Of a stretch of DNA of 64,000 nt, positions 3,575-59,477 are shown piece by piece. Source of the DNA: Phoenix dactylifera. Taxonomy: Eukaryota > Streptophyta > Magnoliopsida > Arecales > Arecaceae. The translations under genes and the position numbers were made by a program. The stretch is from positions 145,218 through 209,217 of the forward strand of contig NW_024068191.1 in assembly GCF_009389715.1 (NCBI RefSeq). Direction: 5' to 3'. A model generated the notes under the pieces. That model was not told where the DNA came from. It saw only the letters and a program-made list of their open reading frames with translations, and searched no databases. Positions within the stretch are counted from its first letter, which is position 1; each line of letters opens with the position of its first letter.

Positions 3575-4740
3575 AGTCGGATACAATAGTCCATATCATC
3601 AAATATATTTGTCAGCCACATCAATTTGCGATATTATCAAACAAGTTAATCAGTTGCATCGGCAGATATTTTAGTTGCCGCATCAGTCAGACACATCGAT
3701 AGACATACCAGTGTGCTATGTTAGTCAGCTATGTTAGTGGACATTGTTGAGGTCCGGGTTCCTCCGACCTTAGACCTTAGCCCCCACTGAACTGGAACAG
3801 GGAAAGGAGACTGCGTCCCCACAGAAGGTATTGTCCGCTTTGGAGTACGTAGAAGCCTTCCTCACGGTTTTGCTCTTTAAAAGGCACCTCCTGAGGAAAG
3901 GGTAATCGAGCCCTCCCTTTAAGGCACAGACCTTTCCGCTATTCAGTCGATGTGGGACTAAGTCCGAGATCCTTTATTTCCACAACATCAGCCCCCCCAG
4001 CGGGAAGGTCTGAGCCGAGGTCAAGGGTCCCTACCTGGTGCGCCAATGTTGAGGTCGGGGTTCCCCCAACCTTAGACCTTAGCCCCCACCGAAGTGGAAC
4101 AGGGAAAGGAGACTGCGTCCCCACAGAAGGTATTGTCCGCTTTGGAGCAGGTAGAAGCCTTCCTCACGGTTTTGCCCTTTAAAAGGCTCCTCCTGAGGGA
4201 AGAGTAATCGAGCCCTCCATTTAAGGCACAGATTTTTCCGCTATTCAGTCGATGTGGAATTAAATCTGAGACCCTTTATTCCCACAACGGACATATTAGC
4301 TTACTGCATTAGTTAGCTACGTCAGCATTGCTAATTATATCAGTTTACTGCATTAGCTCTTGGATCTGCCGCATCAGTTTTTAAGCTACTATATCAGCAT
4401 CTATTCTGACATATTAGATTTTGTATTATCACATCAGCTTGATATATGAGTCTGCCATACTGATTTTTGAGTTGCTACGTCAACTCCTGATCTACTATAT
4501 CAGCTTGTGAGCCGCTATAGCAGCTCCTGATCCGCCATATCAAACTCTACGCTGCCACATCAGCCTTTGGTCTATTACTTCAGCCTCTAAGCTGCCACGT
4601 CTGCTTCTAATCTACAATCACGTCAATTTTTGAGCTGCTATGTTGGCTCCTAATCTATCATATCAACTTCTGAGCTACTACTTTATCTTTTGATCTGCTG
4701 CGTCAATTTCTAAGTACATTCGCGATCTAGTTTCCAAACT
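3575..4740. repeat. Degenerate CTGCCACATCAGC-type minisatellite, split by a nested element
   Basis: Variants of 'GCTGCCACATCAGC' alternating with 'CTGATCTRCYATATCAGC' recur roughly every 20-25 bp from about 3575 to 3739 and again from about 4295 to 4740. The two parts were one array until the element at 3745-4289 was inserted. The spacing is too irregular for a single exact period. Confidence 0.7.
3740..4294 (-). mobile_element. Hyper-compact LTR element (TRIM-like), 243-bp LTRs and 59-bp interior, with TSD
   Basis: Two direct repeats of exactly 243 bp each, 3745-3987 and 4047-4289, are separated by 59 bp (3988-4046). The whole is flanked by the 5-bp duplication GACAT (3740-3744 and 4290-4294). 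Read on the minus strand, each LTR begins TGTTGTGG (the outermost base has mutated to C in the 4289 copy) and ends CCTCAACA. The interior then opens with TTGGCGCACCAGGTAGGG, resembling the TGGCGC-type primer-binding sites of plant LTR elements. It closes with the purine tract CTGGGGGGGCTGA directly before the second LTR. By eye the LTRs differ at about 21 of 243 positions, mostly transitions, so the insertion is old. Confidence 0.85.
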
Positions 4741-29241: not shown

Positions 29242-29599
29242 TCTACTCAGCGAATAACCGATGTGGGACTAAACACACGCCTACACGGGTCCTCACATAC
29301 TCCTTCCGTTTAAGTCCCGACATCCTTGTTAGGCTAAGGATTTAAATCTATTCAAATCTAATCATAAATACCATGATCGGCCCGTGGTCAGCCCCAATGG
29401 ATCCGTGCTGCAGTGTTCCCTAGTTCACATAGGTTATGGGTCGGATCCGCTCTGATACCATTTGTAACAACCCAGGACCTCACCCAAAATGGCTAGTCGA
29501 AAGGTATTATTTGGGTTCCTTGATTCTGTATAAGTACCCAAGATCTACCCAGCGAATAACCGATGTGGGACTAAACACATGCCTGCACAGGTCCTCACA
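29242..29599 (-). mobile_element. TRIM (137-bp LTR), minus orientation, one LTR truncated
   Basis: On the minus strand, the LTR 29599-29463 (137 bp) starts TGTGAGGACC and ends GGGTTGTTACA. Two bases later comes a perfect initiator-Met primer-binding site TGGTATCAGAGC (29460-29449). The interior is about 165 bp, ends in a purine tract (ACGGAAGGAGTA) and meets the second LTR at 29297, of which only 56 bp (29242-29297) remain. There is no coding capacity. The same family recurs at 59.16 kb. The LTR carries the phrase AGTCCCACATCGGTTATTCG. Confidence 0.85.
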
Positions 29600-59163: not shown

Positions 59164-59477
59164 TGTGAGAACCCATGCAAGCGTGTATTTAGTCCCACAT
59201 CGGTTATTCGCTGGATAGATCTTGGATACTTATACAAGATCAAGGAACCCAAATAATACCTTCCAGCTAGCCATTTTGGGTGAAGTTCTGGATTGCTACA
59301 AATGGTATCAGAGCCGATCCGGCCCATAGCCTATGTAGTGCTGCAGTGTCCCCTAGTCTACATAGGCTATGGGCCAAGTCGGCTATGATACCATTTGTAA
59401 CAACCCATGACCTCACCCAAAATGGCTAGTCGGAAGGTATTATTTGAGTTCCTTGATCCTGTATAAGTACCCAAAAT
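59164..59477. mobile_element. Fold-back TRIM: two copies head to head
   Basis: Plus strand: a 137-bp LTR (59164-59300) of the same family as the 29.4-kb element, then primer-binding site TGGTATCAGAGC (59303-59314). After a 19-nt loop (59339-59357) the sequence returns in reverse: GCTATGATACCA (59382-59393, a one-base-altered reversed site) and an 82-bp reversed LTR piece (59396-59477). The arms, about 59219-59338 and 59358-59477, pair almost completely, including CGGCCCATAGCCTATGTAG with its reverse complement next to the loop. Normal elements have their LTRs in direct orientation, so this is an inverted duplication of the 5' end. Confidence 0.85.

Follow-up and report, generated by a model that had tools for sequence, protein, structure and literature searches.

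Introduction

Plant terminal-repeat retrotransposons in miniature (TRIMs) are among the nearest known counterparts of the locus studied here, a pair of long terminal repeats (LTRs) around a 59-bp interior. It lies in a 64,000-nucleotide stretch of the date palm genome (Phoenix dactylifera, contig NW_024068191.1, positions 145,218 to 209,217; hereafter the window). In the survey PMC4717578, plant TRIMs have short LTRs, are non-coding, are flanked by 5-bp duplications and occur in multi-LTR tandem forms, and their partner is usually not known. The palm family resembles them in all these respects. A larger relative was reported for 11 of 289 TRIM subfamilies, and in flowering plants all of these relatives were Ty1-copia elements, whereas the primer of the palm family points to Gypsy. 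The smallest whole TRIM in that survey measures 233 bp with 52-bp LTRs, which by our subtraction corresponds to an interior of 129 bp, compared with 59 bp here.

Four further systems are similar in part. SMART (FRetro129) of grasses is also minimal and non-coding, with TGT...ACA ends and 5-bp duplications, but it has a total length of 292 bp, 85-bp LTRs, a 122-bp interior and a Copia-type candidate partner (PMC3281118). Cassandra elements carry a borrowed promoter of the RNA polymerase III (Pol III) type in their LTRs, enclose a very small interior and form long tandem arrays (PMC7215508), all of which has a counterpart in the palm family, the promoter being a putative one. However, the Cassandra promoter is of the internal 5S type and its primer site that of initiator Met, whereas we found a putative external U6-like module and a tRNA-Arg site. 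The biv-TRIM of bivalves is comparable in its 202-218 bp repeats and 77-80 bp interior, yet it is described without a clear primer site (PMC6934838), while a clear tRNA-Arg site is present in the shorter palm interior. Finally, the Ogre/Tat clade of Gypsy elements shares the tRNA-Arg primer (PMC6317226, PMC2533021). These elements are large and coding, and no sequence link between them and the window family appeared among the 40 candidates scored in each of two genome searches or at 71 of 110 primer sites. The departures from known TRIMs, as far as these sources go, are thus the 59-bp interior, the tRNA-Arg primer and the putative U6-like promoter.

Here we analyze this family in the palm genome. 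We consider it probable that the window element belongs, as an old copy, to a non-autonomous TRIM family that was copied in trans and primed by tRNA-Arg.

Results

A family with a fixed short interior

The element occupies positions 3745-4289 of the window (545 bp) and is oriented on the minus strand. Its two LTRs of 243 bp each align without gaps and are identical at 222 of 243 positions, the differences being 16 transitions and 5 transversions. The lengths of LTRs and interior and the intact GACAT duplication agree with the initial annotation, whose span of 3740-4294 includes the duplications. Also as described there, the interior leads from a primer site to a G-rich tract. After a 1-base spacer come the 18-nt primer site, about 18 nt of family sequence, and the tract within a block of 22 nt. 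At its outer end, the right LTR carries a mutation (CAACG instead of CAACA); in many other copies the TG...CA ends are intact. The element has no coding capacity.

The genome (773 Mb) was searched with the whole element, and the best 40 of 1,119 candidates were scored, which yielded at least 43 matches. Across 38 copies, the distance from the primer site to the second LTR ranged from 56 to 62 nt, and 33 of them had 57-58 nt. While the LTR lengths clustered near 243, 252, 272 and 286 bp, this distance was unaffected by LTR length. A short interior was found in 37 of 38 two-LTR loci (four of the 38 being second copies of the same insertion), which rules out a single deletion derivative. The only long interior, with 644 bp in locus L047 (G000:C468:206947-208674), is a standard interior split by a CACTA-like insert of ~585 bp with CACTAC...GTAGTG ends and CCG on either side, so that this locus was dismissed as a larger partner. 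A 32-nt interior core, searched with up to three mismatches, occurs at 48 genomic places, and its reversed control at none.

Before counting, the fragment L044, L047 and, in places, the tandem locus L010 were left out; L010 and L044 were set aside in the count of two-LTR loci. The same-insertion partners L009, L023, L035 and L046 were excluded from the counts of LTR identity, LTR conservation and T-runs, and retained in those of interior length, target duplications and motifs in 77 LTRs. For L016, L019, L029 and L045, the interior lengths obtained at first were off by extrapolation, and the distances from primer site to LTR were used instead.

Perfect 5-bp target duplications flank 16 of the 24 copies with both outer ends; four copies match at 4 of 5 bases and four at fewer. 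When flanks were paired across different copies, 18 of 552 combinations were perfect, with one-base offsets permitted in the test and in this control alike. Two of the 16 duplicate an insertion that is already counted, so that 14 loci are independent, and most flanks outside the same-insertion pairs are unrelated. Owing to these independent duplications, plain segmental duplication is ruled out as the source of the LTR pair, and the family considered as a possibility in the initial annotation is borne out: it is mobile, and its short interior is conserved. With short direct LTRs, a primer site and purine tract, target duplications at independent sites and a non-coding length below ~1 kb, the element is a TRIM by every structural test made.

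The primer site corresponds to tRNA-Arg(CCU)

The commonest primer site in the family, TGGCGCGCCAGGTAGGGG, is complementary to the 3' end of tRNA-Arg(CCU), namely its 15 terminal genomic bases and CCA; since CCA is added after transcription of the gene, 15 bases were comparable with tRNA genes. Among 38 copies, TGGCGCGCCAGGTAGGGG is exact in 5, has one change in 15 and two changes in 12, the window copy belonging to the last group. Five tRNA genes in the genome possess an exactly matching 3' end, and ARAGORN called all of them tRNA-Arg with the anticodon CCT. tRNA-Gly, considered at first, was dropped in favour of tRNA-Arg(CCU). The initial annotation had set the element apart from the other TRIMs in the window by its primer, and this is supported: those carry the initiator-Met site TGGTATCAGAGC.

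According to PMC3532108, plant TRIMs carry a tRNA-Met site, in whose place we found that of tRNA-Arg(CCU). Because the ant TRIM of the same study uses tRNA-Leu, we take tRNA-Met priming as a habit of the TRIMs then known and not as a defining feature. Non-chromovirus Gypsy elements use tRNA-Arg among others, but not tRNA-Met (PMC6317226), and in Medicago a tRNA-Arg primer was reported in Gypsy families only, Ogre among them (PMC2533021).

Sister families share the primer site

The 19-nt tRNA-Arg primer site, with at most one mismatch, occurs at 110 places in the genome, one of which overlaps a tRNA-Arg gene; the reversed control gave none. We inspected 71 of the 110, namely 30 loci with wide surroundings, locus L112 and 40 short stretches of less than 200 nt each. 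Every one of the 71 sites adjoins an LTR pair or a polypurine tract block, and none lies within a long element. All 30 wide loci contain an LTR pair within 1.1 kb, in L088 with the second long copy 361 nt beyond the site. In about one third of them the LTR boundaries are uncertain (tandem or partial copies), and these were excluded from the interior lengths. L112, which has a variant primer-site sequence and was considered as a partner, is TRIM-like as well and was rejected. In 38 of the 40 short stretches, the block is present and the second LTR begins 54-111 nt beyond the primer site; the LTR start is eroded in L120 and mutated in L142.

At four sister sites (L123, L135, L142 and L154), the second LTR follows about 54-57 nt after the primer site. 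The initial annotation, by which such an interior would be close to the minimum for reverse transcription in trans, needs some correction: 59 bp is not a lone minimum, given these sister sites, and whole elements shorter than this one are known, with 292 and 233 bp (PMC3281118, PMC4717578). The element may rank among the most stripped-down ones still copied by cells.

In L097-L099, three copies of one sister family, the paired LTRs show 98.2, 98.6 and 99.6% identity, and the 5-bp duplications match. With the L097 LTR as query, the best 40 of 1,000 candidates were scored. We obtained at least 40 matches at 95-100% identity and two weaker ones; 32 of the former make up 16 pairs 384-388 bp apart, and no pair a few kb apart was present among these candidates. 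The nearly identical LTR pairs and the many matches at 95-100% indicate that this sister family spread recently.

The elements seem to decay faster than their flanks

LTR identity in the window family ranges from 0.79 to 0.92 with a median of 0.883 (21 copies), and there are 5.4 transitions per transversion. The window copy and a copy at G000:C11:100190-100734 share their flanks across two contigs and therefore represent one insertion. Between the two elements, 44 of 545 positions differ, 39 of them by transitions, compared with 48 of 2,947 in the flanks. The corresponding values are 21/564 versus 7/593 for L018/L023, 7/587 versus 3/572 for L043/L046, and 1/567 versus 0/537 for L034/L035. On these figures, the element appears to change more quickly than the DNA around it, as might be the case for methylated DNA, and LTR divergence would thus overstate its age.

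The LTRs contain a putative small nuclear RNA-type promoter module

An unexpected feature of the LTRs, absent from the initial annotation, is a module resembling the promoters of small nuclear RNA (snRNA) genes. In plant snRNA genes, the upstream sequence element reads RTCCCACATCG, and it lies one helical turn nearer to the TATA box in Pol III than in RNA polymerase II (Pol II) snRNA genes (PMC9845283). With at most one mismatch, it is present in 67 of 77 family LTRs, and it starts at position 29-31 in 72 of 77; none of 300 shuffled motifs fitted the family LTRs as well. A TTAAA box, counted together with the pyrimidine before it, begins 24 nt past the upstream element in 59 of the 77 LTRs and elsewhere in 6. 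The upstream element also occurs (at most one mismatch, 420 nt upstream) in 19 of the 30 wide tRNA-Arg-site loci. In 20 of 21 distinct segments adjoining tRNA-Arg sites (at most two mismatches), TTAAA or TTATA is found at 24-25 nt; three of the segments come from the window family and 18 from sister families or a chance match. Among the sister families, the box reads TTAAA in some and TTATAA in others. In 20 of 21 segments, TTTT lies 62-65 nt past the upstream element. Of 33 family copies, 31 have it within LTR positions 102-109, and many copies hold further T-runs. A near-inverted repeat, CCTTTT ... CAAAACC, spans LTR positions ~104-122 just past the predicted start and is conserved in several families. 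A 5S-type promoter was rejected, because Rfam gave no match up to E 1 for window positions 3700-4330, LTR included; a Cassandra-like 5S rRNA sequence was thus not detected there.

For comparison, we examined the palm's own U6 and U2 genes. The upstream element is present in 9 of 20 U6 loci fetched, 53-54 nt from the RNA start. In the five U6 genes of the C16 cluster, the TATA box starts 22-24 nt past it; of the other four loci, one has a later TATA at 30 nt and three have none that is clean. Three of five U2 loci contain the element, with TATA at 30, 31 and 40 nt and the RNA start at 65-72 nt, and the gene with TATA at 40 has an additional TATA string at 18. Judged by layout and by these few yardstick genes, the TRIM spacing of 24-25 nt is nearer to U6 than to U2 and matches the spacing of type 3 (U6-like) plant Pol III promoters.

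Throughout the genome, RTCCCACATCG has 6,252 exact occurrences, versus 626 for the reversed motif. TTAWA follows the exact element at 12-16 nt in 21 places (reversed control 2), at 22-26 nt in 1,575 (5), at 27-31 nt in 2,297 (6) and at 32-36 nt in 32 (4). Since copies of one family are not independent, these counts demonstrate spread and not significance per family. Among 100 of the 2,297 places in the 27-31 class, nearly all have a single spacer, the 27 nt of the initiator-Met TRIMs of the window (29.2 and 59.2 kb); as this falls between the U6 and U2 values, the class is not clearly U6-like. These TRIMs (window 29259-29571 and 59192-59202) contain the exact upstream element, with TTATA at 27 nt in two of three LTR copies. 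Among 100 of the 1,575 places in the 22-26 class, we found the tRNA-Arg superfamily and several unrelated spacers.

Three further loci carry the upstream element. L113 (G000:C1:3474622-3475322) has, at position 301, the upstream element and TTTATATA at 24-25 nt within a GCGTCG-rich repeat that lacks evident LTRs; its kin recur among the places listed for the 22-26 class. Possibly it is a transposon with a captured snRNA-type promoter. L114 bears two modules of upstream element and box. L116 (G000:C1:11961138-11964400) is a tandem array with seven upstream elements 368-393 bp apart; its LTR start is the same as that of the superfamily and its pre-LTR block similar, and it contains no tRNA-Arg site within three mismatches.

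The features of the window copy are compiled in Table 1. A degenerate repeat of ~20-bp units adjoins the element at window positions 4290-4700.

Table 1. Features of the 545-bp element, in window coordinates; LTRs are named in element orientation
Feature	Position	Strand	Remarks
Target site duplication, left	3740..3744	.	GACAT
Target site duplication, right	4290..4294	.	GACAT
5' LTR	4047..4289	-	243 bp; outermost base mutated, CGTTG start for TGTTG
3' LTR	3745..3987	-	243 bp; TGTTG...CAACA
Interior	3988..4046	-	59 bp
Primer-binding site	4028..4045 (read 4045-4028)	-	TGGCGCACCAGGTAGGGA, 18 nt; 2 mismatches to the commonest form
Conserved block preceding 3' LTR	3988..4009	-	ACCTTCCCGCTGGGGGGGCTGA; similar form in sister families
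G7 tract in this block	3992-3998 (read 3998-3992)	-	Inside ACCTTCCCGCTGGGGGGGCTGA
snRNA-type upstream element, 5' LTR	4250..4260	-	ATTCCACATCG; 1 mismatch to RTCCCACATCG; LTR positions 30-40
snRNA-type upstream element, 3' LTR	3948..3958	-	GTCCCACATCG; exact match
TATA-like TTAAA, 5' LTR	4220..4224	-	25 nt past upstream element
TATA-like TTAAA, 3' LTR	3918..3922	-	25 nt past upstream element
Predicted transcription start, 5' LTR	4194..4195	-	CA dinucleotide; 54 nt past upstream element, as in U6 genes of this genome
Conserved TTTT, 5' LTR	4181..4184	-	~11 nt past predicted start; possible terminator and boundary of terminal repeat (R)
Matching TTTT, 3' LTR	3879..3882	-	

Discussion

Membership in a trans-copied, tRNA-Arg-primed TRIM family is the explanation that we favour. 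In this model, RNA synthesis would be directed by the upstream element and the TATA-like box and would start at the CA of LTR position 95-96, provided that the 54-nt distance between element and start in U6 genes of the same genome holds. The transcript would cross the 59-bp interior into the second LTR, reverse transcription would be primed by tRNA-Arg(CCU), and another LTR retrotransposon would supply the proteins that make the DNA and insert it. A Tat-type Gypsy element is the most likely donor on account of the tRNA-Arg primer. That this module drives the LTR is a separate step, and from the sequence layout we consider the case for and against it evenly poised.

Several observations weigh against this model. 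A coding partner was found neither in the whole-element and L097 LTR searches, scored to the extent given above, nor at 71 of 110 primer sites, the LTR of the window family alone not having been queried. Nor did these searches and sites reveal an LTR or interior common to a coding Gypsy element. The Gypsy-type partner proposed in the initial annotation is a candidate that we infer from the primer; it fits the primer survey of PMC6317226. By its median LTR identity, the family is old. Regarding the promoter, the upstream element is missing in 11 of 30 wide tRNA-Arg-site loci (up to two mismatches, 420 nt upstream), partly because LTRs are truncated, and 12 of 77 LTRs gave no TTAAA box with the pattern used. 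Besides, TTAAA makes a weak TATA box. When the 11-nt windows of the LTR are ranked by conservation, the upstream element comes at the 80th percentile and the window of the TATA-like box at the 90th. The stretch that separates them is likewise conserved, so that common descent accounts for part of the conservation; selection on the two windows is not proven.

Two other explanations depart from the favoured one in the promoter step alone. The element could be an ordinary TRIM with an ordinary Pol II promoter in its LTR, an upstream-element match inherited without snRNA-type function and an interior that drifted to its minimum. Every structural hallmark of TRIMs is present, the modest rank of the upstream element and the conservation between the boxes are as such descent would leave them, and plain read-through by Pol III would be impeded by the TTTT conserved 8-11 nt beyond the predicted start. 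Against it, the module recurs at a restricted spacing in repeats with unrelated spacers, which is suggestive only, as family copies are not independent, and the box alternates between TTAAA and TTATAA among sister families. We regard this reading as a serious contender that falls a little short of an even chance. Recruitment of Pol II is possible at human type 3 promoters (PMC6023835).

The second, a bolder version of the favoured explanation, is transcription by Pol III from a U6-like type 3 promoter, terminated at the TTTT of the 3' LTR. It would agree with the spacing of 24-25 nt (22-24 in the C16 U6 cluster, 30-40 in U2), with the fixed position of TTTT in segments and family copies, and with the precedent of Cassandra TRIMs and their 5S-type Pol III promoter (PMC7215508). 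Starting at 95-96 and stopping at 109, the RNA would have a terminal repeat of ~14 nt for strand transfer. The TTTT of the first LTR would have to be read through, however, and four T residues are short for a plant terminator. Moreover, many copies hold other T-runs, and the yardsticks are few and uneven, with a U6 locus with a later TATA at 30, others with none clean and a U2 gene with an extra TATA string at 18. We therefore consider Pol III transcription rather unlikely. Similarly doubtful is the wider proposition of a recently active LTR superfamily driven by such gene-external promoters, in which TTTT ~14 nt past the start would set R, an interior of ~59 bp or slightly less would suffice, and several unrelated repeat families would have kept or gained the layout. 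The remaining explanation, a deletion derivative multiplied as DNA by segmental or tandem duplication, would account for the flanks shared by the window and C11 copies, L018/L023, L034/L035 and L043/L046, and for the tandem arrays L010 and L116. It is at odds with the perfect, mostly differing target duplications of 14 independent loci and with the unrelated flanks of most others, and we give it hardly any credence.

Among the open-access papers listed (for example 20 of 9,940 and 20 of 56), no title or abstract opening reported a plant snRNA upstream element in an LTR; subscription journals and repeat databases lay outside this search. The title of PMC8190864 points to a precedent in a different type of element: in non-LTR retrotransposons of trypanosomatids, the Pr77 promoter is bound by TBP and the snRNA promoter factor SNAP50.

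For the biology of these elements, our results mean that an LTR element with an interior of 59 bp still reached many sites, the interiors of the small elements compared being 122, about 129 and 77-80 bp. They also mean that tRNA-Arg is the primer of an entire TRIM superfamily, whereas plant TRIMs have been described as users of tRNA-Met. Should the snRNA-type promoter be functional, a portable U6-like promoter layout would be present in thousands of repeats of a single plant genome, which would bear on the transcription of gene-less elements, the choice between Pol II and Pol III, and effects on nearby genes. The young sister family makes the transcription and mobilisation of TRIMs directly testable.
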